This document shows positions 18,195-35,875 of a stretch of DNA of 64,000 nt, piece after piece (positions within the stretch are counted from its first letter, which is position 1; each line of letters starts with the position of its first letter). The stretch lies in assembly GCA_028285035.1 (NCBI GenBank), contig JANQQF010000123.1, forward strand, positions 1 through 64,000. The letters are read 5' to 3'. The position numbers and the translations under genes are program-made. Under the pieces are notes generated by a model. The model was not told the DNA's origin. It saw only the letters and a list, made by a program, of their open reading frames with translations, and did no database searches. Origin of the DNA: Phycisphaerae bacterium (lineage in GTDB: Bacteria; Chloroflexota; Anaerolineae; 4572-78; J111).

Positions 18195-18272
18195 AAAACC
18201 GCAATGACGTTTTGGAACGTGTCGGCTAATTAAATAATTAACCTGTCAGATCCAGATTATGCGGTTTTTTTA
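18195..18272 (+). other. Possible terminator or small RNA, AAAACCGCA...TGCGGTTTTTTT
   Basis: AAAACCGCA (18195-18203) pairs with TGCGGTTTT (18260-18268) and runs into a stretch of seven T residues. The 56-base interior is long for a terminator and could fold separately. It lies in the 346-base gap between the binding protein and first permease, so it may be an attenuator or a processed RNA. Confidence 0.4.
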
Positions 18273-18290
18273 TTATTTGAATAGACGACT

Positions 18291-18355
18291 GAGTAGGCAA
18301 TAGGCAGTATGAAGTAGAATGAATGGCTCTACTCCCTACTGCGTACGGCTTACTC
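18291..18355. repeat. Low-complexity inverted repeat (AGTAGGCAATAGGCAGTA type)
   Basis: GAGTAGGCAATAGGCAGTA (18291-18309) is mirrored by TACTGCGTACGGCTTACTC (18337-18355) with a few mismatches. It is built of short degenerate heptamers. Similar degenerate-heptamer hairpins occur in several other gaps of this window. Confidence 0.65.
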
Positions 18356-18404
18356 CTCAATCTAAAATTTTTTGTTTAAGAAATAATAGTAAAGGGTAAC
18401 ATTT

Positions 18405-19355
18405 ATGGGACGATTAATACTGATGCGATTAGGGTTTGCCATCTTAACGATGGTTTTGGTCAGTATCATTGCTTTTGCGGCGACCGAAGCTTTGCCTGGG
18501 GATAGCTGCACCGCCTACTTAGGTCGCGATGCAACGCCAGAACGATTGGCAAGATGTCAGGAAGATCGTGGTTTAGATCGACCGGTTTATGAACGTTTTG
18601 GGGAATGGGCTGGTGGAATTATTCAGGGCGACTTTGGTAAATCAATGAAACGTGATCGCTCTATCAACGAAATTGTTCAAATCCGTTTCCGCAACACAGC
18701 GGTATTAGCCATCGCCGCTGCCATCGTCGGGGTGCCAATTGCCATCGTGCTGGGTGTTTTCACCGCCCTCATGCGTGACCGTTTTGCGGATGTCGCCATC
18801 TCAACCACAGCGATTGGAGCGATGACTCTCCCAGAGTTTGTTACCGCAGCCATACTGATTTACTTCCTCAGCCTTCAGTTTGGTTGGTTTGATGCGGTGA
18901 CGGTGCTCAGGACTAATGCCTCAATTTTGGAACTTTTGCCAAATATTATTCTACCAGTGATCACCCTCGCCTTCGTCATGATTGCCCACATCTTACGAAT
19001 GGTTCGGACCAGTATGATTGATGTGATGACCAGCGATTTTGTGCAAATGGCCAAATTAAAAGGTGTGCCCTACTGGCAAATCGTCTTCAAACACGCCTTA
19101 CCCAATGCAATGTTACCATCGATCCCGGTTATCGCGCTGACGATTGCCTGGCTTTTAGGCGGGGTGGTTATCATTGAGCAGGTGTTTAACTATCCTGGTC
19201 TTGGCAATGAAATGATCAAAGCAATCTCTGACAGAGATTTACCGCTGGTCTTGGCCATTGCCTTCTTGTTGGCAGCGGTGTATGTGGCTGTCAATCTTGT
19301 CGCTGACCTTCTAACGCTCGTCTTAAATCCGAAACTACGCACATTACGCGGCTAA
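18405..19355 (+). CDS. Dipeptide-type ABC permease, DppB-like
   Basis: A 316-residue BPD_transp_1 permease with six hydrophobic segments. N-terminal LILMRLGFAILTMVLVSIIAF and ATEALPGDSC are typical of DppB/OppB. The ATPase-contact loop is VQMAKLKGVPYWQIVFKHALPNA, and YPGLGNEMIKAISDRDLPLVLA closes the family pattern. AAAGGGTAAC is a plausible ribosome site. It forms a heterodimeric channel with the following gene, 48 bases downstream. Confidence 0.92.
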   Translation: MGRLILMRLGFAILTMVLVSIIAFAATEALPGDSCTAYLGRDATPERLARCQEDRGLDRPVYERFGEWAGGIIQGDFGKSMKRDRSINEIVQIRFRNTAVLAIAAAIVGVPIAIVLGVFTALMRDRFADVAISTTAIGAMTLPEFVTAAILIYFLSLQFGWFDAVTVLRTNASILELLPNIILPVITLAFVMIAHILRMVRTSMIDVMTSDFVQMAKLKGVPYWQIVFKHALPNAMLPSIPVIALTIAWLLGGVVIIEQVFNYPGLGNEMIKAISDRDLPLVLAIAFLLAAVYVAVNLVADLLTLVLNPKLRTLRG

Positions 19356-19403
19356 ACAGATAGGGACTGAACAGATCAAATTATTCGTAAAGGGTGAACA
19401 TTT

Positions 19404-20315
19404 ATGGCTGTTAGATCAATGACCGACAACGCAGTAACTGAAGCACAAAAAAAAGAAAATTATGTCCTCGAAATTCTTAAAAATATGGCTAAAACATCAT
19501 CGGGGATTCTAGGGATGACCTTATTGACCCTTCATATTTTGATGGCACTTTTAGCCCCTTATATTACGCCACACGACCCACTCCACATCCCAAAGGCTGA
19601 TGAGGGGTTAAAATTGGCTGCCCCTTCCTCAGAATATTGGTTTGGCAACGACTCGATTGGTCGAGACGTTTTGTCACGGACAATGATGGGCGGGCGTGTT
19701 GCTTTACTTGTCACAATCACAGGCACAGTGATCGCCATCGCTTGGAGTAGCATCGCCGGGATGTTCCTGGGTGTTGTGGGGGGGCGAATTGATGAGATTG
19801 TGATGAGGGTGGTGGACGCCATTCAAGCAATCCCTTGGCTTTTATTCCTACTCCTAATTGTGAGCATTGTTGGTACAGAGATCTGGGTGCTTATCATCAC
19901 CTTGGGTTTCTTCTTTGGCATCTCGCCAATGCGTATTTTCCGTAATGCCACCCTCGATTTTGTGGCGCGCGATTTTGTTCTCGCGGCAAAAGCGCGTGGG
20001 GAAGGGATGATGACTATTCTGTCTCGTGAACTCCTGCCAAATATCCTTGATATCATCTTGGTTGAAGGCGCAATGCGTTGGTCGTGGATGCTCTTGGCCT
20101 TTAGTTCGCTGACCTTCCTCGGCTTTGGTGTTGCTCCGCCCACACCCGACTGGGGTTTGATGATTTCAAATGCAATTGGCGTTATGGCCAACGCGCCGTG
20201 GTGGACGTTTACCCCAGTTGTTGCGTTAAGCTCTATGATTATCGGCATCAACTTGACCGCCGATGCCTTGGCGAAGGCGACCGGGTTAGATCGCGCTCAA
20301 GGCGCGCCTGTCTAA
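19404..20315 (+). CDS. Dipeptide-type ABC permease, DppC-like
   Basis: A 303-residue permease of the DppC/OppC type. After a 35-residue cytoplasmic N-terminus come LLTLHILMALLAPYITPHDP and FGNDSIGRDVLSRTMMGGR, the classic DppC hallmark. The coupling loop is RDFVLAAKARGEGMMTILSRELLPN, and AFSSLTFLGFGVAPPTPDWGLM is near the C-terminus. It lies between the DppB-like permease and the fused ATPase. Confidence 0.92.
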   Translation: MAVRSMTDNAVTEAQKKENYVLEILKNMAKTSSGILGMTLLTLHILMALLAPYITPHDPLHIPKADEGLKLAAPSSEYWFGNDSIGRDVLSRTMMGGRVALLVTITGTVIAIAWSSIAGMFLGVVGGRIDEIVMRVVDAIQAIPWLLFLLLIVSIVGTEIWVLIITLGFFFGISPMRIFRNATLDFVARDFVLAAKARGEGMMTILSRELLPNILDIILVEGAMRWSWMLLAFSSLTFLGFGVAPPTPDWGLMISNAIGVMANAPWWTFTPVVALSSMIIGINLTADALAKATGLDRAQGAPV

Positions 20316-20347
20316 GCAGTATAAAAAATAAACATGTGACTTGATAT

Positions 20348-22390
20348 ATGAATGATACAATAATTGAAGTTGAAAATCTTTCTGTTGGCTATCGAAACCG
20401 AGCGGGGAATATTGTTCACGTTCTTCGTAACATCGACCTCTCAATTGAACGGGGTGAAACCGTTGGTTTAGTTGGCGAGAGTGGAAGCGGGAAGAGTACC
20501 CTAGCTTTGTCGATGATGGCCTTTCTCCGGTCTGGGAGTGAGGCTATTGATGGGTCCGTTAAATTCAAAGGTGAAGATTTATTCTCTTTATCTCAGAAGC
20601 AAGTTGAGGATTTACGCGGCAAGCAGATTGCTCTGATTCCTCAAAACGCAGGGCAAGCCCTAACCCCCACCATGAAAATCGGGGCGCAAATCGAGGAAGC
20701 CCTTCGTCTCCATACCATGATTCCGCCCAAGGATCGACAAGACCGGGCCATTGAGTTGCTGGGAATGGTCCGCCTGCCTGCCCCAGAGGAAATCATCGAT
20801 CGATATCCCCACGAATTATCGGGCGGGCAGCAGCAGCGGGTGGCCGTGGCCATGGCTTTAGCTGGTGAAGCGGAGTTACTTCTGCTCGATGAGCCGACGA
20901 CGGGTCTGGATGTAACTACCCAGGCCCACATTTTGGAGTTACTGAGCGATCTCGCTAAAGAGACGCACACGGCAATGGTTTATGTGAGTCACGATTTGGG
21001 GGTCATCGCTCGGGTGAGTCATCGGGTCGCGGTGATGTATGCAGGCGAGATTGTTGAGGATGGTCCCTCGCAGGATGTGATGCTCAACCCCAACCACCCC
21101 TATGCCCGCGGTCTATTGGGATCAATTCCGCGACTACGAGATGAGAATCTCCCAGCCTCTTTGCCGGGGACACCACCCGCCGTTGGCTCCATTCTCAGTG
21201 GATGTGCCTTCCGGGCACGATGTAACTTTGCCACCGATATTTGCACCACTGAGGACCCACCATTGGCTAAAATTCCTGGCTCAGACCCGGTTCATAAAAT
21301 CCGTTGTCATCATTGGGAAGAAGTCATTAAAACTGAGTTGGCTCACGAGGGCAATGAAATTGATCGTTATGGCGGAGATGGTACAGAAAAGCCGCTCCTC
21401 GAACTCAAGGATGTGGCTATTTCTTACTTCAAACCTCGGCTTCTTGATCCTATTTTTGGCACCAAGGAACCACCAGCGACCGTGGATGATATTTCGCTTG
21501 ATGTCCGACGGGGGGAGACTATTTCTTTAGTGGGTGAGTCAGGTTCTGGGAAATCGACCATCATTCGATCAATTGCTGGCCTTAAAACTCCAAAATCAGG
21601 AGAAATTACCTTTGATGGCCAAGATTTAACTTCGTCCATTGAAAAGCGGAATCGTGACCTACGCCGCCGCATTCAATTGATCTTCCAGAACCCAGATGCC
21701 TCTCTAAATCCCCGCCAAACTGTGGCTGAAATCTTGGCAATGCCCTTACGCCTCTACTTTGGGGCGAATGGTGAAGAAATAAACAAGCGCTCCCGCGAAA
21801 TTATGCGCCGAGTCCGTTTGGGAGAACACTATTTAGATCGTTTCCCCGGTCAGCTATCGGGGGGGGAAAAGCAACGGGTAGCCATCGCTCGGGCCTTTAT
21901 TGCCGACCCTGAACTAATTTTATGTGATGAGGTCACCTCGGCCTTGGATGTGTCGGTACAGGCGGCGGTGCTGGATCTGCTCTATGAACTCAAAAACGAA
22001 CAAGATGCCACCTATGTCTTTATCTCCCACGACTTGGCCGTCGTTCGGGCCGTTTCTGATCGTGTCGCTGTGTTGTATCAAGGTCGTCTCTGCGAGGTCG
22101 GCCCCGTCAATGACATCTACGTCGAGCCACACCATCCGTACACAGAAACCCTTCTTGGCGCGGTCTTAGAGCCTGAGCCGGGGAGCGAGCCAAAGCTCAA
22201 CGCTGACGATATTATTGAGTCAAACCCACCATCCATCGGCTGTCCCTTCCAGCGCCGCTGTCCGCGCCGCATTGGCGATATCTGCGATGATGAAACGCCT
22301 CCGTGGCAAGAAAATGGGGCCAACGGACACCGAATTCGGTGCCACATTCCGATTGAGGAGTTGCTTCAGGCTCAGGTTGAAGCAGCTTAA
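20348..22390 (+). CDS. Fused DppD-DppF ABC transporter ATPase
   Basis: A 680-residue protein containing two complete ABC ATPases. The first has Walker A GESGSGKST (about residue 44), signature LSGGQQQRVAV and Walker B LLLLDEPTTGLD. The second starts near residue 345, with Walker A GESGSGKST, signature LSGGEKQRVAIARAF and ILCDEVTSALD. Each half ends in the oligopeptide-transporter C-terminal Cys motif: GCAFRARCNFATDIC and GCPFQRRCPRRIGDIC, which in this group can bind an iron-sulfur cluster. The two subunits are separate genes in Escherichia coli; fusions are known elsewhere. The ATG has only a weak ribosome site. A clear terminator follows. Confidence 0.92.
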   Translation: MNDTIIEVENLSVGYRNRAGNIVHVLRNIDLSIERGETVGLVGESGSGKSTLALSMMAFLRSGSEAIDGSVKFKGEDLFSLSQKQVEDLRGKQIALIPQNAGQALTPTMKIGAQIEEALRLHTMIPPKDRQDRAIELLGMVRLPAPEEIIDRYPHELSGGQQQRVAVAMALAGEAELLLLDEPTTGLDVTTQAHILELLSDLAKETHTAMVYVSHDLGVIARVSHRVAVMYAGEIVEDGPSQDVMLNPNHPYARGLLGSIPRLRDENLPASLPGTPPAVGSILSGCAFRARCNFATDICTTEDPPLAKIPGSDPVHKIRCHHWEEVIKTELAHEGNEIDRYGGDGTEKPLLELKDVAISYFKPRLLDPIFGTKEPPATVDDISLDVRRGETISLVGESGSGKSTIIRSIAGLKTPKSGEITFDGQDLTSSIEKRNRDLRRRIQLIFQNPDASLNPRQTVAEILAMPLRLYFGANGEEINKRSREIMRRVRLGEHYLDRFPGQLSGGEKQRVAIARAFIADPELILCDEVTSALDVSVQAAVLDLLYELKNEQDATYVFISHDLAVVRAVSDRVAVLYQGRLCEVGPVNDIYVEPHHPYTETLLGAVLEPEPGSEPKLNADDIIESNPPSIGCPFQRRCPRRIGDICDDETPPWQENGANGHRIRCHIPIEELLQAQVEAA

Positions 22391-22580: not shown

Positions 22581-23825
22581 TTAAAGCAACTCCAACTTCC
22601 GCAGTGTCGCCTCATACCCCTGTCGGATCTCATCATAAGCCACGTGCCAGCCATTCTCTACAATCTTCTGGCCGTTCACTACAACTTCATCAACCGCCCG
22701 TGGGGTTCCACCAAAGACAACGGCATCCGCCAGCAAATTATCGCTCATACCAATAATTGAGGGGTCATCGGCTCGTAAATAAATCTGATCAGACGGCCAA
22801 ATTTCATCGGCAAACCCAATCGCTTGATATCCGGCTTCAGTGGCTACACGCAAAAGCCTTGGGGCTTCCGCAGCCACGGTTCGAGCCTCTGTTCGCGACC
22901 GGTCATCAAGCTCAACCGCCCGGATTTCTTCAAAAGCATCGCTTGTGGCGTGGCTATCAACCCCCACACAAAATTGTGTCCCCGACTCCATCAAGGCTGC
23001 AGTTTCGGCCAGGCCATCGCCCAAATCACGCTCGGTAGTTCGACACAAACAAACAAAGGCCCGATTTTGGCCCAAGAGCCGAACCTCATTCGGGGCTAGA
23101 TGCGTGGCGTGGATAGCCACAAAACGCTCATTGAGCACCCCAATATCGCTCAAAAGCTCGACAGGCCGAAGCTGGTATTCGGCCATACACTCTTCAATTT
23201 CCCGCCGTTGCTCAGCCACATGCATATGCAGCAGCAGATTTTTTGTGTCAGCATACACCGCCAGTTCAACCACTTCATCCTTAGGCACTGCCCGAATACT
23301 GTGTGCCGCCACAGCAAATTCCACCAACGGATCATCGGCATATCGCCGCGTCAACGTTTCCACATCATCCAAGACCCGCTCGATCGTTGGGTCAGCGAAA
23401 CGATGCTGGGCTGGGGTCATCGTCTGCTCAAAGCCAGCCCGGAGATAGGCTGTACGGATCAGGGAAATACGTACACCCACTTCGCGGGCCGCTTGGATCA
23501 CCGACTCGGCCAAGGCAGTTCGATCTTCATATGGATTGCCTTGGGGGCCGTGGTGAATGTAATGGAATTCGCCCACCGCAGTCACCCCGGACATGGCTAA
23601 CTCAGCAAAGGCCAATCGGGAAATGTTGAACACATCATCTGGGTCCAGTTTTTCGACCAAGGTATACATCAAACCCCGCCAGGACCAAAATGAGCCAGCT
23701 TCAGTATCTCGACGCTGAGTTCGCCCCCGCAAAGCTCGCTGAAAGGCGTGGGAATGGGCCGTTGCAAAGCCGGGGAGAATGATATGTTTTTCAGTCCGGG
23801 TAATTTGAGGTGTTGTTTCTGTCAT
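22581..23825 (-). CDS. hutF: Formimidoylglutamate deiminase (HutF), N-terminally short
   Basis: A 414-residue amidohydrolase-superfamily enzyme that would deaminate N-formimidoyl-L-glutamate to N-formyl-L-glutamate and ammonia. Metal ligands are in HSHAFQRALRG (residues 24-34), HMHVAEQRREIEE and the Asp of GVDSHATSD; CLCRTTERDLGDG is the typical HutF loop. The protein begins only about 20 residues before the HxH motif, lacking most of the N-terminal beta-sandwich strand set of longer HutF proteins. GGAGGTCTGA precedes the ATG and the upstream gene ends close by, so this start looks genuine. It is the last gene of the hut operon, following the M20 hydrolase by 12 bases. Confidence 0.87.
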   Translation of the reverse strand: MTETTPQITRTEKHIILPGFATAHSHAFQRALRGRTQRRDTEAGSFWSWRGLMYTLVEKLDPDDVFNISRLAFAELAMSGVTAVGEFHYIHHGPQGNPYEDRTALAESVIQAAREVGVRISLIRTAYLRAGFEQTMTPAQHRFADPTIERVLDDVETLTRRYADDPLVEFAVAAHSIRAVPKDEVVELAVYADTKNLLLHMHVAEQRREIEECMAEYQLRPVELLSDIGVLNERFVAIHATHLAPNEVRLLGQNRAFVCLCRTTERDLGDGLAETAALMESGTQFCVGVDSHATSDAFEEIRAVELDDRSRTEARTVAAEAPRLLRVATEAGYQAIGFADEIWPSDQIYLRADDPSIIGMSDNLLADAVVFGGTPRAVDEVVVNGQKIVENGWHVAYDEIRQGYEATLRKLELL

Positions 23826-23837
23826 TCAGACCTCCTA

Positions 23838-25055
23838 TCATCCAATCATTTCATCTAGCCGCAGCACCGTTTCCAACAAAACCTGTGCCCCAGTGAGGCA
23901 TTGCTCTGGTGTAGAAAATTCGTCTTTGCTATGGCTAATACCAGCCCGACTGGGAATAAAGAAGATGCCTTGAGGGCAAAGCTTGGACATCACCATCGCG
24001 TCGTGGCCAGCCCCACTTGACATTGTGATGTGGGTGAAATTTAGGGAGTCGCAGGCCACTGTGATAGCCTCACGAATCAAGGCATCTACTTTAACGGGTG
24101 ATTTTTGAATAACCACATCACAAGAACCATCGAGCCGAGCAACCTCAGCTTCAAGCAATTCTTGAGCTTGCTCCAATAAACGGGTGTCAAGGGCACGCAG
24201 TTCGACGATAGCCTCAACCCGATTGGGGATGACATTTGGGGAGCCGGGGGAAACCGAAAAATTACCAATGGTGCCGACAATGCCCAATTCGATGGCCATA
24301 TCCCGCACAAATTGGATTAGAGGGGCAGCTTTGATCAAGGCATCATCCCGTTGATCCATCGGGGTCGTCCCAGCATGATTGGCCACGCCTTCAAAACTGA
24401 CGGCAAAGCGCCAAATTCCGACAAAGCCATCAACAATGCCAATATCGATACCCCGATCTTCCAAGCGGCGACTTTGTTCAATATGCACTTCAACAAAGGC
24501 AGCAAAGCTACCCTTTCGGCGACGCGCCACTCGAATTTCTTTTGGGTCCAAGCCTGCCGCCTGAAAATGCTCACGCACAGGTCGCCCGTCCCAGGCGGTT
24601 TTATCCAAGAGGGCTGGATTGAACTGCCCCGTCAGGCCTTGGCTGCCCATTGTCCCCCCAGCCATTGTTGCCTCTTCAGCGGCAAAGTTGATCCAAGCTA
24701 ACGGGTGTCGGAGTGTAACCTCAGTCGTGACCAAGGCCTCCACAACGGCCAGAGCCGCAACAACGCCCAAGGCTCCGTCATAAGCTCCGCCGTAGGGAAC
24801 AGTATCGGAGTGGGAGCCGATGGCGATGGGAGGTAAATCAGTTTGGCCTGGGTATTGGGCGATGGTGTTCCCGATGGCATCATCTGTGGGATCTAGCCCC
24901 ATCGTTCGCAGACGATACTTTAGCCACGCTCTGGCCTCACCATCAATGGGGCTGTAGGCCACACGATGAATTGCGCCATCTGGCTGACGGCCAAACTTGG
25001 CCAAAGCTTCAAGGTCTTCCCAAAATTTTTCAGGATTTATGATTGGTCTTGTCAT
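23838..25055 (-). CDS. M20-family Zn-dependent amidohydrolase (AmaB/allantoate amidohydrolase-like)
   Basis: A 405-residue hydantoinase/carbamoylase-family enzyme. Predicted di-metal ligands lie in GSHSDTVPYGGAYDG (about residue 79), FAAEEATMAGG, EVHIEQSRRLE and SHSKDEFS; the dimerisation-domain motif GVANHAGTTPMDQRDDA is intact. Relatives hydrolyse N-carbamoyl amino acids, allantoate, ureidoglycolate or formyl amino acids. No HutG-type N-formylglutamate deformylase is visible in the operon, and this gene lies directly between hutI and hutF, so it probably removes the formyl group from N-formylglutamate; this is inference. Formiminoglutamate hydrolysis is also possible. The ribosome site is weak, with translational coupling to hutI likely. 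Confidence 0.85.
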   Translation of the reverse strand: MTRPIINPEKFWEDLEALAKFGRQPDGAIHRVAYSPIDGEARAWLKYRLRTMGLDPTDDAIGNTIAQYPGQTDLPPIAIGSHSDTVPYGGAYDGALGVVAALAVVEALVTTEVTLRHPLAWINFAAEEATMAGGTMGSQGLTGQFNPALLDKTAWDGRPVREHFQAAGLDPKEIRVARRRKGSFAAFVEVHIEQSRRLEDRGIDIGIVDGFVGIWRFAVSFEGVANHAGTTPMDQRDDALIKAAPLIQFVRDMAIELGIVGTIGNFSVSPGSPNVIPNRVEAIVELRALDTRLLEQAQELLEAEVARLDGSCDVVIQKSPVKVDALIREAITVACDSLNFTHITMSSGAGHDAMVMSKLCPQGIFFIPSRAGISHSKDEFSTPEQCLTGAQVLLETVLRLDEMIG

Positions 25056-25066
25056 TGATGTTGTCG

Positions 25067-26338
25067 TTAGACTCCCCAGCCGCCTTTAATCACCGTTTTG
25101 ATGAGATTGCCACCAAATTGATAAGCCAGGTGGCGATAATCAGTTGTGTCTAAAATAAGCATATCAGCCCGTTTGCCAATCTCCAAAGACCCACACCGCT
25201 TCCCTAGCCCGACTGCGTACGCCGCGTTGAGAGTACAGGCATTGAGGGCCTCAGCCGGCAACAGCTTTTGATAACGACAGGCTAAGGCCATCACCAAAGG
25301 CATCGATGGACAAGGGGCCGAGCCGGGATTAATATCAGTGGATAGGGCAATCGCTGCACCAGCATCGATCAAGGCTCTTGCGTCGGCAAAGTGGATGCTA
25401 CCCAAATTGAAGTTGACGGCAGGCAACACCACCCCAACCGTATCCGAGGTGGCAAGGCGTTCACGTTCTTCTGCTATGGTCACATCAAGATGATCGACCG
25501 ACACAGCCCCTAATTCTACCCCCAAGCTCACCCCACCCAACGCGGTAAATTCATCCGCGTGGATTTTCGCCGGAAGCCCCAAAGCTAAACCCGCTTCAAG
25601 CACCCGCCGAGATTGCTCTAAATCAAAGGCATTTTGTTCACAGAAGACATCATTAAAGCACGGAATATCGCGTTCAGCAAAAGAGGAGTTTTCATACCAC
25701 TTTGCGGCCAACGGCAGCATCTCGTCAATAACCAGTTGGGTAAAGGCTTCCGTACGTCCTTTGTATTCTGGGGGGATCGCATGGGCACCCATAAAAGTCG
25801 GAACCAAGTCACAGGGTTGGGATCGATCCAAAATTTCAATGGCCTGTAACATTTTTAGCTCGGTTTCAGCGTCGAGACCATAGCCGCTTTTAATTTCAAC
25901 GGTCGTTGTGCCTAAGGCTAACATTGCCTCAAGCCGAGGCTGCGTTTCCGCCACAAGTTGCTCAACGGTGGCCTGCCGCACTGCCTGAGTTGTACTGACA
26001 ATCCCACCGCCAGCGGCCATAATCTCCAGATAGGTGGCCCCTTTCACCCGCATCTCGAACTCACCAACCCGGTCACCGGCAAAAACGACGTGGGTGTGGG
26101 GATCGACAAAACCGGGACATACAACCTTACCAGCAGCATCAATGGTGCGCCGAGCGGTACAAACTGCCCGTAATTGCGCTGAGGGACCAACCGCGACAAT
26201 TTGCCCGCCTCTGGCTGCAATTGCCCCATCTTCGATGATCCCCACATCCAGCATCGCCGCACGCCGTTTCGGGCCATCAGGATTGGCACAGGTGACCAGT
26301 TGTCCCGCACTATGAATTAATAAATCAACTTGGGGCAT
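25067..26338 (-). CDS. hutI: Imidazolonepropionase
   Basis: A 423-residue amidohydrolase that converts 4-imidazolone-5-propanoate to N-formimidoyl-L-glutamate. Zn/Fe ligands are in DPHTHVVFAGDR (about residue 78) and KIHADEFTALGG, with VDHLD; the family pattern VEIKSGYGLDAETELKML is clear. Length and motifs match canonical HutI. AAGGAGG precedes the ATG. It is the third hut enzyme and lies downstream of the Rieske gene. Confidence 0.95.
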   Translation of the reverse strand: MPQVDLLIHSAGQLVTCANPDGPKRRAAMLDVGIIEDGAIAARGGQIVAVGPSAQLRAVCTARRTIDAAGKVVCPGFVDPHTHVVFAGDRVGEFEMRVKGATYLEIMAAGGGIVSTTQAVRQATVEQLVAETQPRLEAMLALGTTTVEIKSGYGLDAETELKMLQAIEILDRSQPCDLVPTFMGAHAIPPEYKGRTEAFTQLVIDEMLPLAAKWYENSSFAERDIPCFNDVFCEQNAFDLEQSRRVLEAGLALGLPAKIHADEFTALGGVSLGVELGAVSVDHLDVTIAEERERLATSDTVGVVLPAVNFNLGSIHFADARALIDAGAAIALSTDINPGSAPCPSMPLVMALACRYQKLLPAEALNACTLNAAYAVGLGKRCGSLEIGKRADMLILDTTDYRHLAYQFGGNLIKTVIKGGWGV

Positions 26339-26355
26339 TTTTCCTCCTTAAAGAC

Positions 26356-26387
26356 AGTGGTTAGTGATTAGTGGTGAGTGGTTAGTA
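26356..26387. repeat. Degenerate heptamer tract (GGTTAGTGATTAGTGG type)
   Basis: Short imperfect TTAGTGR units repeat through the 90-base gap between hutI and the Rieske gene. Same style as the other degenerate-heptamer repeats of this window, but without a clear inverted arm. Confidence 0.45.
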
Positions 26388-26428
26388 AAAATTTATATGT
26401 CACGTGTTATGAACGCGACAGTTTTTTA

Positions 26429-27448
26429 CTATTCCTCGACGACATTCAAATAATGATAATATGCTAAGCCTTCACGCTGCATTGTACGTCGGTAATTGAT
26501 GGCGACGGCATCAAATTTGAGATGCAATTCATCGGCCAGATCAAAAGGAACTTGTTCGGGGCGTTGGGACTCAACGATCCGTTTATCTTGGTTGAAAATC
26601 ACATCCTCGAAGTCTTGCAATACACTATCGGGTTGGTCTAGATCGTAATTTCGCCCAATAATACAGTACCCCCGGCATTGCTCTGCGCCAATGGGCTGGG
26701 AAACAAAAAAGTAGACCATTCCCCGCTCGCCCCCCCAGCCCAATCGCAACACAATCGTGTAGGGAAGATGTAATTCGTAACGACTGCGACGTTCCGGTTT
26801 AACGACCTCTTCATTGGCAAACACTGGAAAGTCATCTGAGTTTGGGGCCTCAGGACGAACAATCGTGTAGTGGAGAATGTGACCTTTGGCTTCGACCTCG
26901 TAGGGTGGCACAACGGGTCGGTCGGGGTCACCGAGCAGACCAGGGTGCACCCACGGGAAATGTCCAAAATCGGTAAAGTTTTCAACCTGTCGTGATGCAT
27001 CGCTGTTCCACTCAAATGGCCCAGTCAACACCACCTTCCACGCCCCGTTTTCTAGCTCAGGAATTTCTGACAGCGAGTAGATTGGCTCAGCCAAAGCCAC
27101 CCAAATCAAACCGTATCGCTCCTGACACAAATAACTCACCGTTCGGGCCTTAGTCGGGATAGATTTATTATCCTCATTTTGGGGGATCAGCACACAGGCC
27201 CCATCGGCGTTGTATCGCCAACCGTGGTAGGGACACACAATACAATCATCGGCCAGCCAGCCAAGGGATAGCGCTGTGCCGCGATGAATACAGACATCTT
27301 TCATCGCTTGCGGCGTACCAGTGATGGTACGCCAAATGACCAGTGGCTCTTCCAATAGCATCGTGCCATAGGGCGCATCCGATGTCACTTCGTGGCTGTA
27401 GGCGACGGGATGCCAACATTTATAAATTTTTTCGGTAAACTTTGCCAA
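26429..27448 (-). CDS. Rieske non-heme iron oxygenase, VanA/PaO-like
   Basis: About 339 residues. The Rieske [2Fe-2S] ligands are Cys-x-His in CIHRG and Cys-x2-His in CPYHGW (about residues 52-72). The mononuclear iron site shows the order Asn-x2-Asp-x2-His-x4-His in ENFTDFGHFPWVHPG (near 154), as in vanillate O-demethylase and related single-component oxygenases; these often remove methyl groups. It needs a separate reductase, which is not adjacent. Its location between hutH and hutI is unusual, and I infer a role in converting a modified histidine or urocanate compound. The frame opens at TTG 27496; TTG at 27448 is preferred because GGGAG lies six bases before it and the conserved N-terminus (AKFTEKIYKCWHPVAYS) starts there. 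Confidence 0.85.
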   Translation of the reverse strand: MAKFTEKIYKCWHPVAYSHEVTSDAPYGTMLLEEPLVIWRTITGTPQAMKDVCIHRGTALSLGWLADDCIVCPYHGWRYNADGACVLIPQNEDNKSIPTKARTVSYLCQERYGLIWVALAEPIYSLSEIPELENGAWKVVLTGPFEWNSDASRQVENFTDFGHFPWVHPGLLGDPDRPVVPPYEVEAKGHILHYTIVRPEAPNSDDFPVFANEEVVKPERRSRYELHLPYTIVLRLGWGGERGMVYFFVSQPIGAEQCRGYCIIGRNYDLDQPDSVLQDFEDVIFNQDKRIVESQRPEQVPFDLADELHLKFDAVAINYRRTMQREGLAYYHYLNVVEE

Positions 27449-27530
27449 AACGCACTCCCACACTACACAATTTAATTTGAGTCTGCTTGTGAGCAAGCTT
27501 TTAATTTATCTAACCGAAGCCTTTGATCAA

Positions 27531-27603
27531 CAGGGTAACAAGGTAGCAGGGATGCAGGGTATCATTAGCATTGACCTTGCGACTTTGTCACCTTGCTACC
27601 CTG
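27531..27603. repeat. Inverted repeat CAGGGTARCAAGGT
   Basis: CAGGGTAACAAGGTAGCAGGG at 27531-27551 is mirrored by TTTGTCACCTTGCTACCCTG at 27584-27603. It sits between hutH and the Rieske gene. A related tract is at 47683-47753. Confidence 0.65.
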
Positions 27604-27672
27604 AAACCAGAAGCCTCTTATAGCCAACAAAACTCGATCAGGTGCTCATGACATCCGCTCGTAAAATCACAA

Positions 27673-29247
27673 TTACAACTCCCACACATCCTCCACCACC
27701 TGATTTGTTGCCCGAACCAGTTCACCCGTGGCAATGAGTTGCTGACAGCGATCAATGTGGGGGTATAGCACCGCATCCTCAACAATGAAGGGAATATGTT
27801 CTCGAATGAGGTCATAGGCGGGTTGGGTGCCACGTCCTAGTTGAGCATCATCGCCAAGCGTTTGCTTGCGAAAGTCAATCCCCTGAGCCGCAGCCATCAA
27901 CTCCAAAGCCAAAATATGTTCCACATTACTGATAATCTGCCGCGCTTGCAGAGCAGCGGTACAGCCCATGCTAACATGATCTTCAACATTAGCCGAGGTC
28001 GGGATGGTGTCGGCACTGGCGGGATGGGCGAGCACCTTGTTTTCGGTGGCTAAGGCTGCGGCAGTGTATTGAGTAATCATAAAGCCTGAATTCAGGCCAC
28101 CATTTTGGGTTAAGAAGGCCGGCAAGGTTTGGGCGTTACTGGCTTCATCGGTCAAACGCATCAGCCGCCGCTCGGAAATGTTGCCCAGTTCCGTCAAAGC
28201 CAAGCCCATATAATCCATGGCAATCGCCAACGGCTCACCGTGAAAGTTACCGCCAGACAGCACTGTAATTTCGTCAGTCTCATCATCGATGAAGATGAGC
28301 GGGTTATCGGTAACCGCATTCAACTCGATCTCGAAGACCCAACGGGCGTAAGCAATCGCGTCGCGGACAGCCCCGTGAACTTGTGGGATGCAGCGCAAGG
28401 TGTAGGCATCCTGCACATTGGTGGGATCGTGGTGGCGCGTAAAGTCGCTGCCATCGAGCAGTTCGCGCAGATAGTTGGCACAATTCAGTTGGCGAGGGTG
28501 CGGGCGTAGTTGATGAATACGATCATCAAAAGCCAGCGGCGTGCCGTGCAAGGCTTCCAGACTTAGGCAACCCGCAATGTCAGAGGTACGACTTAATAGC
28601 CGCGCCCGATAGGTTTCAATCGCCCCGATTGCACACATCACGGCCGTACCATTGGTCAAGGCCAGCCCTTCCTTGGCCGCCAGTGTGGCTGCTTGCAAAC
28701 CCGCCTCGCTTAAGGCTGTCGCCCCATCGATCATTTTCCCCTGATATTCAGCCTCCCCTAAGCCCAACATCACCAAGCTCATGTGCGCGAGCGGCGCCAA
28801 ATCTCCGCTGGCCCCAAGAGAGCCTTTCTCAGGAATGCGAGGGTGAATCCCTGCGTTGAGCATATCGAGTAAAAGTTGTAAGGTCGCCAAGCGAATGCCC
28901 GAATGGCCGCGAGCCAGCGTGTTGGCTCGAATGAGCATGATAGCCCGCGTGGTGGGGATATCGAAGGGGTCGCCCGTGCCCACGGCGTGGCTGAGAACAA
29001 TGTTACGTTGCAAAGCCTCAACTTCATCTGGTGAGATGATGCGATCTTTAAAGGCCCCAAAGCCCGTGGTGATTCCATAGGCGATACGGCCTTCTTCTAG
29101 CATTTGTACGACGGCTTGAGCCGCTCGTTCCACTTTGGCTGACGCAGCATCACTGAGTTGTACAACAGGGTCGCCTGGCTGGCTATAAGCTACATCAATC
29201 ACTTGTTCTATTGTCAGGCTTTCGCCATCAAGGGTAATTTGGTTCAT
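27673..29247 (-). CDS. hutH: Histidine ammonia-lyase
   Basis: A 524-residue MIO-dependent lyase deaminating L-histidine to urocanate. The cofactor-forming triad Ala-Ser-Gly is visible in KGSLGASGDLAPLAHM (about residue 143). Other family motifs include GITTGFGAFKDR, LTNGTAVMCAIG, DAYTLRCIPQVHGA and LSGGNFHGEPLA; all core positions seem intact. Its start overlaps the P450 stop codon (ATGA), so the two are translationally coupled. It is downstream of hutU, LamG and P450 genes in the operon. Confidence 0.95.
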   Translation of the reverse strand: MNQITLDGESLTIEQVIDVAYSQPGDPVVQLSDAASAKVERAAQAVVQMLEEGRIAYGITTGFGAFKDRIISPDEVEALQRNIVLSHAVGTGDPFDIPTTRAIMLIRANTLARGHSGIRLATLQLLLDMLNAGIHPRIPEKGSLGASGDLAPLAHMSLVMLGLGEAEYQGKMIDGATALSEAGLQAATLAAKEGLALTNGTAVMCAIGAIETYRARLLSRTSDIAGCLSLEALHGTPLAFDDRIHQLRPHPRQLNCANYLRELLDGSDFTRHHDPTNVQDAYTLRCIPQVHGAVRDAIAYARWVFEIELNAVTDNPLIFIDDETDEITVLSGGNFHGEPLAIAMDYMGLALTELGNISERRLMRLTDEASNAQTLPAFLTQNGGLNSGFMITQYTAAALATENKVLAHPASADTIPTSANVEDHVSMGCTAALQARQIISNVEHILALELMAAAQGIDFRKQTLGDDAQLGRGTQPAYDLIREHIPFIVEDAVLYPHIDRCQQLIATGELVRATNQVVEDVWEL

Positions 29248-30494
29248 CGTTCATCCCATTCAACATTCAAGGTCAACGGTCCCCGAAAAGAAATATTGCG
29301 GGTGTAGGCTAGGTTTTGCTGATCACTCAGGCGCAACGAGGGCATAAGGCGGGTCATCTCCTCAAACAGAACGATCATCTCTAGCCGAGCCAGCGGCGCA
29401 CCAACACAGTAATGAATGCCGTAGCCCAAGGCGAGATGGGCTTTAACATTGTCCCGGGTCATATCAATCACATCAGGATCAGGGAAAAGGCTGGCATCTC
29501 GATTAGCGGAATTGAGCATCAGCAGCAGATTTGAGCCAGCCGGAATGTCTACCCCATTGATGACGGTATCCTGAACGACATAGCGACGCCAGGCACAGAC
29601 CGAGGGATCGTAGCGCATCATCTCTTCGACAGCATCGGGAATGAGACTAGGCTGCTGGCACAAAAGCCCCCATTGCTGCCGATCTCGCAACCAATGAAGC
29701 AGACCATTGGTGATCTGAGCGGTGGTGGTTTCGTGGCCAGCCACTAGCAAGGTAATCATACAACTGGCGATTTCGTTAACGGTCAAAACAGCATCGTCAC
29801 CGTCTCGCATCCGAATGAGATCACTGGTCAAATCATCGGTGGGTTGTTCAATTTTACGCTTGACCAATCCCACCACGTAATGCCAGAACGGCACTAGCCC
29901 CTTGGTTCGTTCAATCTGCTCCTGGTCAGATGGCTTGCCATAGTACAATTCGACCCGATTATCTGACCAAGCCTTCACCTGCGGCACATCCTCATTGGGT
30001 ACACCGAGCACGTGAAACAACACATAGGCGGGAAATTCATAGGTAAGTGCCGAAACAATATCAGCCTGACCTTGTGTCAGTAAAGGGGACAGTTTCTCAC
30101 GGGCTAATTGACGAATGGCTGGCTCAAAGTGACGCATGCGACGGGGCACAAACAGCTTGTTTACTAAATTACGGATACGGGTATGATCCGGCGGTACATT
30201 ATTTGAGAGCACGGGCACAGGGGTGTAATCACCGTCAGCCAACATTTGCTGCACTTCCGCCGAAAAGGGCTTGATGGGCGTAATCGTATTCGCCGCTGTG
30301 AAGGTGTTATGATCCCGGAAAATGGCTTTGATATCCTCATACCGAGTCACAATCCAATAATCGATATCAGCGTTGTAAAAAACAGGCTCAGTCTCGCGAG
30401 ATTGGGCGAGCAGAGGAAATGGATCAGTCAGGTCAAGTGGATCAAAGGCATCACTCAGATGTGAGACTGAACATCCCGTTGTTTTTGTGGTCAT
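29244..30494 (-). CDS. Cytochrome P450 embedded in the hut operon
   Basis: A 416-residue bacterial class P450. The I-helix oxygen-activation motif is AGHETT (about residue 245), the ExxR pair is in EEMMRYDP, and the heme ligand loop is LGYGIHYCVGAPLARLE (Cys near residue 355), with Leu replacing the usual Phe of FGxGxHxCxG. It is complete and soluble, with no membrane anchor. It needs ferredoxin and a reductase; an FprA-type reductase lies at 11678-13078. The stop overlaps hutH, so it is made with histidine ammonia-lyase. Together with the Rieske oxygenase this suggests an oxidative step on a histidine-derived substrate, which is inference. GGAGAAACA precedes ATG. Confidence 0.93.
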   Translation of the reverse strand: MTTKTTGCSVSHLSDAFDPLDLTDPFPLLAQSRETEPVFYNADIDYWIVTRYEDIKAIFRDHNTFTAANTITPIKPFSAEVQQMLADGDYTPVPVLSNNVPPDHTRIRNLVNKLFVPRRMRHFEPAIRQLAREKLSPLLTQGQADIVSALTYEFPAYVLFHVLGVPNEDVPQVKAWSDNRVELYYGKPSDQEQIERTKGLVPFWHYVVGLVKRKIEQPTDDLTSDLIRMRDGDDAVLTVNEIASCMITLLVAGHETTTAQITNGLLHWLRDRQQWGLLCQQPSLIPDAVEEMMRYDPSVCAWRRYVVQDTVINGVDIPAGSNLLLMLNSANRDASLFPDPDVIDMTRDNVKAHLALGYGIHYCVGAPLARLEMIVLFEEMTRLMPSLRLSDQQNLAYTRNISFRGPLTLNVEWDER

Positions 30495-30510
30495 TGTTTC
30501 TCCAGCGTTC

Positions 30511-31350
30511 TTATTCTAACTCAAACAGCTCCAGCACCTCTTCAGGCGCTAGCGCACGTCGATAAATCCGAATATCGTCAATCGCCCCTCGGGTATATAC
30601 GACACGGTCACTGTATTGATCGGTGCCAATAAACATGGAGTAGGGTGTGCTTGAAATTGCGCTACCGCCGTAGGTTTCTTCCAATGATAGTTGACCATTG
30701 ATGTACATTTGAAGGATGCTTCCCGTCCAGACCCCAACGATGTGGGTCCACTCATCTTCAGATAATGGCTCGGCGCTATCCAAACAGTAGTGGCTTGGTT
30801 GACCCGCCGGTTGCACACAAAATTCGGCCTGATCTCGGATCAGCCAGATGCCATAGCGGGAGTGACCGCCACGTTCGGGATCGCTCTTCTCGACGATGGT
30901 GTACCACGTCTCAATATCCTGCGGCTCAAACAATACCCAAGCGCTGACCGTTGATTTGAAGGTCAGTCCGATACTTTGAGCGTGCGGGATCTCGACGAAA
31001 TCATCAACACCATCCAGCAATAAAGCACTGTCCGGGTTTCCAAATCGATCTTCGGTAAAGGTTGCGTCACCATTGATCTCGCCGTGGTTTTCATTCCCGC
31101 TTTGATCGTTAGCATCGCCATTGAACGGATAAAACGCGCCCAAATCGGTATTTAGGTCAGGCTCAGTCGGTTCTGGTGGGGAGATGGTGATGGTAGGTTC
31201 TGGAATTGGGGTCGGAGGCGACGAGGTTTCAGTGGGCAAAGGTGTCGCTATCGGTGGTGTAGTTGGGGTGGGTGTAGCAGGTGAGGGCGCAGCAGTGCAA
31301 CCGAAAAGCAAGATGATGAGCAGACTTAAAACAATGGTTTGTCTTGTCAT
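30511..31350 (-). CDS. LamG-domain lipoprotein
   Basis: A 279-residue secreted protein. Lipobox LFGC places the lipid Cys at about residue 18; a Pro/Thr-rich linker runs to about residue 70. The rest is a concanavalin-A-like LamGL domain (Laminin_G_3 type) with GAFYPFNGDANDQSGNENHG, LDGVDDFVEIPH and GAIDDIRIYRRALAPEEV at its end. It likely binds a carbohydrate or protein surface. The start overlaps the hutU stop by one base (TAATG), a tight coupling that is strange for a surface protein in a hut operon. It may help capture the substrate, but no function can be assigned. Confidence 0.85.
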   Translation of the reverse strand: MTRQTIVLSLLIILLFGCTAAPSPATPTPTTPPIATPLPTETSSPPTPIPEPTITISPPEPTEPDLNTDLGAFYPFNGDANDQSGNENHGEINGDATFTEDRFGNPDSALLLDGVDDFVEIPHAQSIGLTFKSTVSAWVLFEPQDIETWYTIVEKSDPERGGHSRYGIWLIRDQAEFCVQPAGQPSHYCLDSAEPLSEDEWTHIVGVWTGSILQMYINGQLSLEETYGGSAISSTPYSMFIGTDQYSDRVVYTRGAIDDIRIYRRALAPEEVLELFELE

Positions 31351-33002
31351 TACTTCCCTAACATCGGAATTTTTACATCCTGGTCCTTAGCAAATTGAAT
31401 GGCTTCATCATAGCCCGCATCAACATGTCGCACCACACCCATCCCAGGGTCAATCGTGAGAACACGCTCCAGGCGGCGGGCCGCCGCCTCGGTTCCATCC
31501 GCGACAATGACTTGGCCAGCGTGAATGCTGTAGCCGATGCCGACCCCACCGCCGTGATGCAGACTGACCCAAGTGGCCCCACCGACAGCATTGGCCATCG
31601 CGTTGAGCAGCGGCCAATCGGCAATCGCATCCGAGCCATCTTTCATCCCCTCGGTTTCTCGATTGGGGCTGGCCACAGAGCCACTATCGAGATGGTCGCG
31701 GCCAATCACGATTGGGGCGCTGACTTTGCCTGAAGCGACCAATTCATTAAATTTTAATCCCGCTTTCATTCGCTCGCCGTAGCCCAACCAACAAATCCGA
31801 GCGGGCAAACCTTGAAATTCGATCTGATCCTGGGCCATTCGGATCCAACGGGCCAGATGCTCATCCTCAGGAAACAATTCAAGGATGGCCTCATCGGTCG
31901 CATAAATGTCTTGGGGATCACCAGAGAGGGCAACCCAACGGAACGGGCCTTTGCCTTCGCAGAAAAGCGGCCGAATGTAGGCGGGCACAAAGCCGGGGTA
32001 ATTGAACGCTCCTTTTAGACCATTGTCATAGGCCCGCTGGCGGAGATTGTTACCATAATCGAACACCACACTGCCTTTGGCTTGCCAATCAAGCATCGCC
32101 TGGACGTGCTTGGTCATCGCATCAACCGATTGACGTTGATATTCGGCGGGGTCGCGCTGACGGAGTTCAGCCGCCTCATCGAGTGACATCCCAACCGGCA
32201 AGTAGCCGTAGAGGGGGTCGTGGGCCGAGGTTTGGTCGGTAACCACATCGGGCACGATGCCACGCTCGACTAATTCGGGCAGAATTTCGGCGGCATTGCC
32301 AATCAAGCCGATTGATTTGGGTTGCTCTGCCGCTAAGGCTTCGTCGGCCCAAGTCATCGCTTCTTCGAGGTTATCGGTAATGGCATCAATTTGACGCAAG
32401 GAGAGTCGACGTTCGGCCCGCCACCGATCAACTTCCACGAGCAACCCCACGCCCTCATTCATCGTAATGGCGAGGGGTTGGGCGCCACCCATTTCCCCTA
32501 AACCTGCCGTGACAACCAGTTTCCCTTTCAGGCTCCCCCAGCCGTGCTGGCGAGCCAATGCCCCAAAGGTTTCATACGTGCCCTGCAAAATGCCCTGAGT
32601 ACCGATGTAAATCCAACTTCCAGCCGTCATCTGGCCGTACATCATCAGGCCTTCATCTTCCCATTTATCAAAATTTTCCTGGGTGGCCCAGGCGGGCACA
32701 ATGTTAGAGTTGGCAATCAACACCCGGGGAGCATCGTCGTGGGTACGGAAAACGGCCACGGGTTTGCCCGACTGTACCAGCAGGGTCTCATCTGGCTCAA
32801 GCTGGCGTAATGCTTCAAGAATGGCATCAAAGCTCTCCCAGTTGCGGGCCGCTTTTCCCCGCCCACCATACACGATCAGGTTGTCAGGATCACCCGCTAC
32901 CTGAGGGTCGAGATTGTTTTGCAGCATCCGATAGGGCGCTTCAATCAGCCAATTTTTACAGTTTAATTGAGTGCCCTGTGGGGCGTGAATCTGTCTTGAC
33001 AT
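31350..33002 (-). CDS. hutU: Urocanate hydratase
   Basis: A 550-residue NAD-dependent urocanase converting urocanate to 4-imidazolone-5-propanoate. [17 protein letters not shown] near the N-terminus, the NAD site [12 protein letters not shown] and the active-site Cys in [14 protein letters not shown] (about residue 405) are all present; [22 protein letters not shown] is conserved. GGAGGTCAATA precedes the ATG. It is the first enzyme gene of the operon, after the GntR regulator. Confidence 0.96.
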
Positions 33003-33029
33003 TATTGACCTCCGAAAAAGTTTATCTGT

Positions 33030-33122
33030 TGTGACGCTCTACATCACACTATTCGTCCCAAACGTAGAACATTAGCAAGCGTTCCAAAATACTAAACACG
33101 GATGGGAAGAACACGAATAAAA
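33030..33122. repeat. Diverged dispersed repeat remnants upstream of hutU
   Basis: TGTGACGCTCTACATCACA followed by AAACGTAGAACATTAG resembles the GCTCTGCGT/ACGCAGAGC element at 22505-22550 with substitutions. The segment ACACGGATGGGAAGAACACG (about 33098) matches an arm of the inverted repeat at 54501-54557. Any hut operator in this short region would overlap it. Confidence 0.45.
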
Positions 33123-33132
33123 AAATTTAGTA

Positions 33133-33870
33133 TCACAACGACGGCTGTACCATCGCGCTCATACGATAGGTTGGTTCGTGGTAAATGGCTTGATACCAGA
33201 CCGCAGGAATGATGACGTTATCTTTTTGGGTGAAGGTGAGGCGATCAACGAAAAAGGCGGGTGTACTGGATGTGGCTTGGAAGTGGTGGGCCTTGTCTTC
33301 AGGTAATTGACCAACCTCGACCGTATGGGTCATCTTCACCAATGAAATCTGGTATTTGTGAAGCAACAGCCAGTGAATTGAACTATTCTCCAAATCTTCC
33401 GTCAACAGGTCTGGACATAAGGTTTTGGCCAGATAGCGGGTTTCGTAAACCACAGGCTGTCCATCTGCCAGACGCAAACGAGCAATATAAATAATCGGGT
33501 CGCCCTGACTCATCGCTAGTTTTTCAGCAAGGGTCGCTGTGGCGGGTATAACTTCTGCTTGCAGCAGTTTGGTTGACGGAGTGCGGTTTTGGCGGCGCAT
33601 GTCGTCGGCAAAACTGGTGAGGGAGAAAAGTGGGGTCGTCGGAGTTTGTCCAGCCACAAAGGTACCCTTGCCCTGCTCACGTCGAATAAGCCCTTCGTCG
33701 ATGAGCCTCCGAATAGCCTCACGCACGGTGCCTCGGCTGACCTGATGTTGCTGGGACAGCACATCCTCCGTTGGTAACTGATCGTTGGGTTGCAATATCC
33801 CTGAGTCAATTTGCTGCCGGACAATTTCGGCTAATTGATAATATTTTGGTAGTGGCCCCGCTTTTAGCAT
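33133..33870 (-). CDS. hutC: GntR-family regulator, HutC-like (UTRA domain)
   Basis: A 245-residue transcription factor. The N-terminal winged helix has YYQLAEIVRQQIDSG, LPTEDVLSQQHQVSRGTVREAI and GLIRREQGKGTFVAG. Residues about 90-240 form a UTRA effector domain with PIIYIARLRLADGQPVVYETRYL. HutC proteins repress hut genes and release DNA on binding urocanate. Directly upstream and on the same strand as hutU, this is the obvious local regulator. The gap to hutU is 130 bases. The ribosome site is weak. Confidence 0.85.
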   Translation of the reverse strand: MLKAGPLPKYYQLAEIVRQQIDSGILQPNDQLPTEDVLSQQHQVSRGTVREAIRRLIDEGLIRREQGKGTFVAGQTPTTPLFSLTSFADDMRRQNRTPSTKLLQAEVIPATATLAEKLAMSQGDPIIYIARLRLADGQPVVYETRYLAKTLCPDLLTEDLENSSIHWLLLHKYQISLVKMTHTVEVGQLPEDKAHHFQATSSTPAFFVDRLTFTQKDNVIIPAVWYQAIYHEPTYRMSAMVQPSL

Positions 33871-33980
33871 TTGTCAAAACTCAAATTCATCTATACAACT
33901 GGACGACTAGTTTAATCCAAAGTTAAGAGGGGGGCAAATTTCTGTTTTGCGCTTTTAGTAAACCCACAGTAGAGTGGGTC

Positions 33981-34798: not shown

Positions 34799-34876
34799 CG
34801 CATCTTTGTAGGGGTGATGCAATACAATGGTGTATTGGATTGTCCCGTAGTTACAAAACTCATGGAGGAGAACGTT

Positions 34877-35875
34877 ATGAAGAAAAATCTTGCATTTGTA
34901 CTGATGTTGGTTAGCTTAATTGTGTTAGCTGCCTGTGCAGAGACAGACTCTCGGGTAAGATTAACCGCAACCCCAACTGTCGATGCCGAAGGAACAGAAA
35001 CCGCTCAAGAAAGTGTGACCATCAAATTAGCAGAAAATCCCTGGTCAGCCTCACAGGTTAACGTGGCTGTTGCAAAAATCTTGATCGAACAAGAGATTGG
35101 TAACCCTGTTGAAATCGTAACTGTGGATGAAAATGCCCAGTGGAGCGCACTGGCCAGTGGCGATCTACACGCCAGCCTGGAAGTTTGGCCGTCTGGTCAC
35201 GCTGAAAATGTGGCTCTATATATTGACGAGCAGGGTAGCGTTGAGAATGGTGGCGATTTAGGAGCTGTTGGTGTCATTGGCTGGTTTATGCCCAGTTATA
35301 TGCTGGATAGTGACCCTGAACTAGCGACCTGGGAAGGCTTTACCAAGCCAGAAACTGCTGAACTGTTTGCCACCGCCGAAACAGGGAGTAAAGGCCAATT
35401 CTTGGCTGGAGATCAAAGCTGGGTGCAATACGATGGCGATATCATCAACAATCTAGGAATGGATTTTGAAGTGATTACGGCTGGGTCTGAAGAGGCCCTC
35501 CTAGCAGCCCTTGATTCTTCCTACAGCCGCGAAGAGCCAGTTCTCTTCTATTTCTGGACGCCACACTCGGTTCACGCTCAGTATGAATTGACCCAAGTTG
35601 AATTGCCAGAATACAGCGATGAATGTTACGCTGAAGCCGATAGTGGTGGTGTTGATTGTGCCTATCCGGCTGATCAGCTGTTCAAAATCTTCTCATCAAG
35701 CCTTAAAGATGCAGCTCCAGATGTACATACCCTTCTTTCAAATTTCAACTACAGCAATGAGGATCAAATTTCGATGATTGCTGCCGTCGAGTTGGATGGC
35801 CTCAGTGCTGAGGAAGCGGCGCAAGCCTGGATTGCTGATAATGAATCTGTTTGGAAGAGTTGGTTACCCCAGTAA
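34877..35875 (+). CDS. OpuAC/ProX-type betaine-binding lipoprotein (orphan)
   Basis: A 332-residue binding protein of the glycine betaine/choline OpuAC family. The lipobox is LAAC (Cys about residue 20), then a Thr/Glu-rich spacer. The domain starts at VTIKLAENPWSASQVNVAVAK; VEIVTVDENAQWSALASGDLHASLEVW and EPVLFYFWTPHSVHAQYEL supply the tryptophan/aromatic residues that form betaine cages. Neither permease nor ATPase lies nearby, so the partner is elsewhere or this is a solitary receptor. ATG at 34877 follows GGAGGAG. Its position next to a hut operon raises the idea of a histidine-betaine-like ligand, only a guess. Confidence 0.87.
   Translation: MKKNLAFVLMLVSLIVLAACAETDSRVRLTATPTVDAEGTETAQESVTIKLAENPWSASQVNVAVAKILIEQEIGNPVEIVTVDENAQWSALASGDLHASLEVWPSGHAENVALYIDEQGSVENGGDLGAVGVIGWFMPSYMLDSDPELATWEGFTKPETAELFATAETGSKGQFLAGDQSWVQYDGDIINNLGMDFEVITAGSEEALLAALDSSYSREEPVLFYFWTPHSVHAQYELTQVELPEYSDECYAEADSGGVDCAYPADQLFKIFSSSLKDAAPDVHTLLSNFNYSNEDQISMIAAVELDGLSAEEAAQAWIADNESVWKSWLPQ

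Follow-up and report, generated by a model that had tools for sequence, protein, structure and literature searches.

A 64,000-nucleotide stretch of contig JANQQF010000123.1 (assembly GCA_028285035.1, Chloroflexota), referred to in the following as the window, was analyzed with respect to a histidine-utilization (hut) operon that additionally encodes a cytochrome P450 and a Rieske non-heme iron oxygenase. Histidine degradation is a textbook pathway that proceeds without oxygenases. Including the additions, the cluster comprises nine genes, all located on the minus strand between positions 22581 and 33870 and arranged in the 5'→3' order hutC, hutU, LamG lipoprotein gene, P450 gene, hutH, Rieske gene, hutI, M20 amidohydrolase gene and hutF. 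These genes and a possible regulator-binding site are as follows:

33887–33898, minus strand: possible HutC box TTGTATAGATGA, directly upstream of hutC, two mismatches to the query TTGTATAGACAA
33133–33870, minus strand: GntR/UTRA regulator, HutC-like (PF00392 and PF07702; best match TIGR02018, at 144 bits below the cut-off of 220)
31350–33002, minus strand: hutU, urocanate hydratase (TIGR01228, 949 bits, cut-off 375)
30511–31350, minus strand: LamG-domain lipoprotein (Laminin_G_3, PF13385; N-terminus with LLFGC)
29244–30494, minus strand: cytochrome P450, 416 aa (PF00067)
27673–29247, minus strand: hutH, histidine ammonia-lyase (TIGR01225, 630 bits, cut-off 539; ASG motif)
26429–27448 (listed open reading frame to 27496), minus strand: Rieske non-heme iron oxygenase of the VanA_C type (PF00355 and VanA_C, PF19112)
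25067–26338, minus strand: hutI, imidazolonepropionase (TIGR01224, 457 bits, cut-off 298)
23838–25055, minus strand: M20 amidohydrolase (PF01546; TIGR01879, 337 bits, cut-off 204)
22581–23825, minus strand: hutF, formimidoylglutamate deiminase (NF006681, 461 bits, cut-off 362)

The genes named in the initial annotation of this locus were all found on the minus strand at the position given there and are supported by profile matches; the two overlapping junctions it described, TAATG between hutU and the LamG gene and ATGA between the P450 gene and hutH, were likewise confirmed. The HutC-type regulator lies within the coordinates of that annotation, which did not name it. HutH, HutU, HutI and HutF all exceed their curated NCBIfam cut-offs. 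Short gaps separate the LamG and P450 genes (16 bp), hutI and the M20 gene (11 bp) and the M20 gene and hutF (12 bp), and larger ones were observed between the Rieske gene and hutI (90 bp), hutC and hutU (130 bp) and hutH and the Rieske gene (224 bp). The last value refers to a Rieske start at the TTG codon at position 27448 (339 aa, with GGGAG close upstream), which appears more likely than the listed start at 27496; in view of this gap, the Rieske gene may have its own promoter. Catalytic motifs are intact in the P450 (heme loop and AGHETT), HutH (ASG) and the Rieske protein (CxH/CxxH and the NFTDFGH...H site). The M20 protein scored 394 bits against a cut-off of 399 for the allantoate-amidohydrolase subfamily and exceeded the cut-off of the broader hydantoinase/carbamoylase subfamily TIGR01879; it probably stands in for N-formylglutamate deformylase as the last hut step.

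In order to evaluate whether the oxygenase genes accompany hut genes elsewhere, relatives of both were located in other genomes. The P450 family is large: of 7997 proteins scored, 6708 matched at E ≤ 0.001, and the best 120 of these were all at least 65% identical. A scan of genome contigs kept 79 loci, 36 of which (L001–L034, L049 and L067) hold close P450 relatives with at least 57% identity over the matched part. Hut genes were in view of the P450 gene in four of the 36 loci, three from Chloroflexota and one from Candidatus Fraserbacteria, a count representing a lower bound as some contigs are short. These loci show the orders hutH–P450–209 aa open reading frame–Rieske–hutI (L014), hutC–hutU–hutH–P450–Rieske–hutI–hutF (L030), P450–hutF (L034) and, in Candidatus Fraserbacteria (L049), P450–hutU–hutH–hutI–hutF. 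Together with the window they represent four arrangements, since L014 and L030 share the order hutH–P450–Rieske–hutI except for the extra reading frame in L014. A first P450 tree comprised 161 rows, 156 of which belong to the ingroup; here a single change accounts for the five hut-linked rows of known context (support 97). A second tree used 47 hand-chosen rows, and in 99% of its 200 bootstrap trees one change separates these five from 12 unlinked rows, which were likewise hand-chosen. The Fraserbacteria row is long, and its exact position in the tree is unsure. P450 relatives were absent from viral contigs, and those on plasmids (28 records) were all below 60% identity, the ten listed ones at 38–42%.

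Relatives of the Rieske protein with 76–81% identity were detected in six of 56 genomes of the order to which genome G024 belongs (G013, G024, G028, G375, G376 and G377); the P450 was found in three (E ≤ 1e-120) and hutU in 43 (E ≤ 1e-100) of the same genomes. Five of the six carriers have the Rieske gene on one contig with a hut gene, and it directly adjoins hutI or hutU in G013, G024, G028 and G377. G024 features a tight hutU–hutH–P450–Rieske–hutI–hutF cluster behind hutC and, furthermore, a second hut cluster (L128, contig C35) of the order hutC–small open reading frame–hutU–hutH–hutF, with neither hutI nor an oxygenase gene in view. G377 and G375 encode the Rieske protein with hut but no P450 reaching E 1e-120. 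Conversely, the Fraserbacteria locus L049 has the P450 with hut, and the only Rieske relative of its genome (39% identity) is located on another contig. A draw at class level found the Rieske gene in seven of 396 genomes, namely G024, G376, G377, G478, G527, G538 and G588; searches of two more orders recovered the latter four (one of 46 and three of 28 genomes), and a draw at phylum level two of 301, namely G024 and one genome at 60% identity. In the Rieske tree, hut-linked rows are scattered and require at least three changes, 39 of 500 shuffles doing as well; the link is therefore either old and often lost or was gained more than once, and it is not obligate. The prediction that both oxygenases co-occur with hut in relatives was thus borne out in part: both recur with hut in more than one gene order, but the association is loose, many carriers having no hut gene in view. 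Overall, the link between hut and the oxygenases looks real.

Further genes were recorded around the Rieske relatives. In G375, the Rieske gene and hutU are separated by approximately 3.4 kb with three open reading frames, encoding a DUF402 protein, a GAPDH-like protein and, at 2865–4106 of locus L124, the organoarsenical exporter ArsJ (567 bits, cut-off 400). A cyclodeaminase/mu-crystallin-like gene directly follows the Rieske gene in G028 and G375, and in G376 (L125) it follows after intervening ABC ATPase and sodium/proton exchanger reading frames; among these genes of L124, L125 and L126, the L124 protein was scored by profile and those of L125 and L126 were recognized by eye from sequence. 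In G538, the surroundings of the Rieske gene include a dimethylargininase/arginine-deiminase-like gene on the opposite strand (L142, 12228–13196). Moreover, two plasmids, from Rhodococcus ruber (L144) and Pantoea sp. At-9b (L145), encode Rieske relatives (61% and 57% identity) next to genes for a VanB-type reductase, a nitrilase-family hydrolase and a cupin, with additional formate dehydrogenase (Rhodococcus) and isochorismatase-family (Pantoea) genes. These plasmid neighborhoods suggest nitrogen-heterocycle breakdown; no hut gene is listed near either relative, in a 25-kb stretch in the case of Rhodococcus and with an incomplete gene table.

Both oxygenases were further compared with solved structures. 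The nearest solved chains of the Rieske protein are the methylxanthine N-demethylases NdmA and NdmB (165.8 and 144 bits over residues 9–324 of 339), followed by SxtDIOX and SxtT. All 130 family rows keep the CxH/CxxH motif and the mononuclear iron ligands. The alignment included the variant chain 6icp, whose altered positions, presumably NdmA Asn282 and Phe286 (with Gln289 as the NdmB equivalent, as we assume), match Glu281 and Phe285 of the window protein. Both residues occur in all 130 family rows, hut-linked or not, and the substrate amide residue of NdmA/NdmB is accordingly absent from this family. An acidic Glu281 in the pocket would fit basic substrates, for example imidazoles, guanidines or amines. 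Among three more distant Rieske relatives, two share Glu and Phe and the Pantoea protein has Thr and Leu. An AlphaFold model of the Rieske protein was set aside, its mean pLDDT being 68 and falling below 50 at residues 273–304, where Glu281 lies.

The P450 is most similar among solved proteins to 5xjn/5gwe, which we take to be CreJ, CYP288, and to CYP116B-type heme domains (275–326 bits); chain 6ldl was taken as CYP116B46. Thr70, Tyr184 and Tyr185 of the window P450 align, as mapped by eye, with Val91, Ala205 and Phe206, which the available portion of PMC11889516 gives as pocket residues of CYP116B46. These positions and others near the heme were identical between hut-linked and unlinked P450s in the 15 chosen rows examined, one of them partial; this finding points to one chemistry common to both groups. 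Residues specific to the hut clade were found at, among others, positions 93, 178, 182 and 196 when 45 hut-clade rows were compared with 110 other P450 rows (P0010, identical to L030, and five outgroups left out). A substrate switch of the P450 on joining hut was considered and dropped, since the Fraserbacteria row breaks the link between these distal residues and hut. The evidence thus leans towards a P450 substrate that is not special to hut.

Regarding expression control, HutC acts through a box of this kind in other bacteria, with urocanate as the inducer. The 12-mer TTGTATAGACAA, which we take to represent this box, served as query. The box in the window is weak on its own (68 matches at up to three mismatches versus 49 expected), and the exact 12-base box TTGTCTATACAA was found upstream of hutC in the oxygenase-bearing operon of G024, in its second hut cluster and in G013. 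At up to two mismatches, no box was found before the window Rieske gene (27449–27672), before the P450 gene of L049 or, in G377, between hutH and hutU. The oxygenases may be co-induced by urocanate via HutC.

Based on recurrence in several arrangements, the oxygenase genes have very probably been selected to stay with hut. For the operon as a whole, a hut variant with the oxygenases as peripheral entry or salvage enzymes is proposed, to which a rough probability of 0.35 is assigned. HutH, HutU, HutI and HutF, probably with the M20 hydrolase for the last step, would accomplish ordinary histidine degradation. The NdmA/NdmB-like Rieske enzyme would act on a small, basic heterocycle containing nitrogen, oxidizing an N-methyl group or a ring carbon. 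Where hut is present, the substrate would be a modified histidine or another imidazole and the product histidine or a hut intermediate; carriers lacking hut would put the product to a different use. Since each oxygenase occurs with hut without the other, the P450 would be a second, independent oxygenase, with a substrate probably not unique to hut. Electron donors would be encoded elsewhere. The more specific claim that the Rieske enzyme, perhaps also the P450, forms a dedicated oxidative entry branch demethylating or hydroxylating modified histidines or imidazoles for the hut enzymes is doubtful; such a branch would span Chloroflexota and, for the P450, reach beyond, and no earlier description of it was found. 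As regards the N-demethylation suggested initially for both oxygenases, it is plausible for the Rieske enzyme in view of its closest solved relatives and finds no such backing for the P450, given its distribution among genomes without a hutH match and its invariant heme-near residues.

Several observations show how loose the link to hut is or weigh against the proposed entry or salvage function. Methylmalonyl-CoA mutase genes were in view at 22 of the 36 P450 loci (L002, L005–L013, L016, L018–L023, L025–L027, L029 and L031), directly downstream of the P450 gene in 21 and approximately 7 kb off in L006. The genomes of 26 of the 32 unlinked P450 loci were searched for hutH; 25 of them, including 16 that are mutase-linked, gave no match at E 1e-100, and in G030 (partial P450, L067), hutH is located on another contig. 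This search was not fully sensitive, as it missed G013 (hutH cut by the contig end) and returned nothing for G028 and G375 despite other hut genes. Moreover, the hut-linked Fraserbacteria P450 carries the unlinked-type letters at all four distal positions. For the Rieske enzyme, no hut gene was found on the 6-kb contig of G376 or within 12–20 kb of the gene in G478, G527, G538 and G588; hutH occurs on another contig in G588 and gave no match in the other three of these four. The Rieske proteins of these five genomes have the same key residues as the hut-linked ones, and Glu281 is also present in the Rhodococcus plasmid relative and replaced by Thr in that of Pantoea. A Pfam scan of 40 window proteins revealed no redox partner encoded inside the operon; the sole candidates for a partner or a formaldehyde enzyme, two zinc alcohol dehydrogenases (3669–4976 and 41578–42495) and a Pyr_redox_2 protein (11678–13078), all lie outside it. 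Finally, histidine ammonia-lyase itself is reported to act on N-tau-methylhistidine (PMC11432326, as far as the available part of that article goes), so this isomer need not be demethylated first.

MeaB-like and inositol-catabolism-like genes were often observed near the mutase-linked P450s, which belong to the part of the family outside the hut clade; like the mutase genes, the MeaB, iol, GlpD and GAPDH-like neighbors were recognized by eye from sequence.

The mutase-linked loci, the P450 carriers without a hutH match, the shared heme-near residues and the five Rieske genomes without hut in view favor a different explanation, about equal in weight to the entry or salvage function: the oxygenases would be co-regulated with hut but separate from it, handling compounds met alongside histidine-rich nutrients, their products never entering the pathway and their placement reflecting expression timing. 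This leaves unexplained why hut clusters came to hold two unrelated oxygenases, with more than one gene order and, for the P450, in two phyla. The entry or salvage function accounts for the link to hut, but poorly for the P450, and tolerates carriers without hut because its product may be histidine itself; it is put forward first because it makes sharp predictions.

An unlikely third explanation is that the P450, the Rieske enzyme or both hydroxylate either an intermediate or one of the dead-end acids imidazole propionate, lactate and acetate, so that HutI would receive imidazolonepropionate or something close to it without the involvement of HutH and HutU. CYP116B enzymes, near to the window P450 by sequence, perform an analogous ring hydroxylation of 2-hydroxyphenylacetate that feeds homogentisate degradation (PMC8449657 and PMC11889516, in the portions available), and the downstream hut enzymes exceed their family cut-offs; against this stand the P450 relatives whose genomes gave no hutH match and the Rieske genes away from hut, where a product usable only by HutI would be pointless. 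That the oxygenase genes are passengers inserted by chance without function in the operon, as the LamG lipoprotein gene may be (no match above 60 bits in the 79 loci kept from the P450 contig scan), is very unlikely, since despite the minority of oxygenase-bearing operons among the 56 genomes (Rieske 6, P450 3, hutU 43) the genes recur in several arrangements and are strongly conserved (mean column identity 76% in 19 rows and 70% in 22 rows, chosen from the best matches).

In relation to known systems, the cluster shares hutU, hutH, hutI and hutF (above cut-offs) and possibly a HutC-type regulator (best match below its cut-off) with the standard hut operon and differs from it by the added P450, Rieske and LamG genes and by an M20 amidohydrolase where the HutG deformylase might be expected. 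The Rieske protein has the same Rieske cluster and iron motifs as NdmA/NdmB, but Glu281 in place of what we take to be Asn282/Gln289, and no NdmD-type reductase is encoded beside it. The P450 lacks the fused reductase domain of the self-sufficient CYP116B enzymes, the P450 family being the only one matched in its 416 residues. Compared with ergothioneine catabolism, the M20 protein resembles ErtE, the N-carbamyl-L-glutamate amidohydrolase, but misses its cut-off (NF058540, 392 of 520 bits), and HutU, although related to thiourocanate hydratases, scores 949 bits as urocanate hydratase versus 672 bits as thiourocanate hydratase. Bacterial degradation of N-tau-methylhistidine, which is not known to use an oxygenase, was reportedly studied by Beliaeva in 2022. 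This route, known here through its citation in PMC11432326, likewise brings a modified histidine into a hut-like pathway. Among the top-ranked open-licence PMC papers, no description of hut together with a P450 or Rieske oxygenase was found.

If the entry or salvage function holds, the added oxygenases would enable uncultivated Chloroflexota to use imidazoles that bear methyl or other modifications, such as those from muscle protein, anserine, carnosine and fungal thiols. The locus would furthermore offer a genomic entry point to a P450 family that is strongly conserved and resides both in hut clusters and in clusters with methylmalonyl-CoA mutase genes.

Beyond the operon, an oligopeptide importer is encoded on the plus strand at 16388–22390; it is convergent with hutF and therefore not part of the operon. 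An OpuAC-type binding protein (34814–35875) lies beyond hutC, with two small reading frames in between. Furthermore, a creatininase-family protein is encoded near branched-chain-type ABC importer genes on the minus strand at 2361–10404, possibly representing a further nitrogen-compound cluster.

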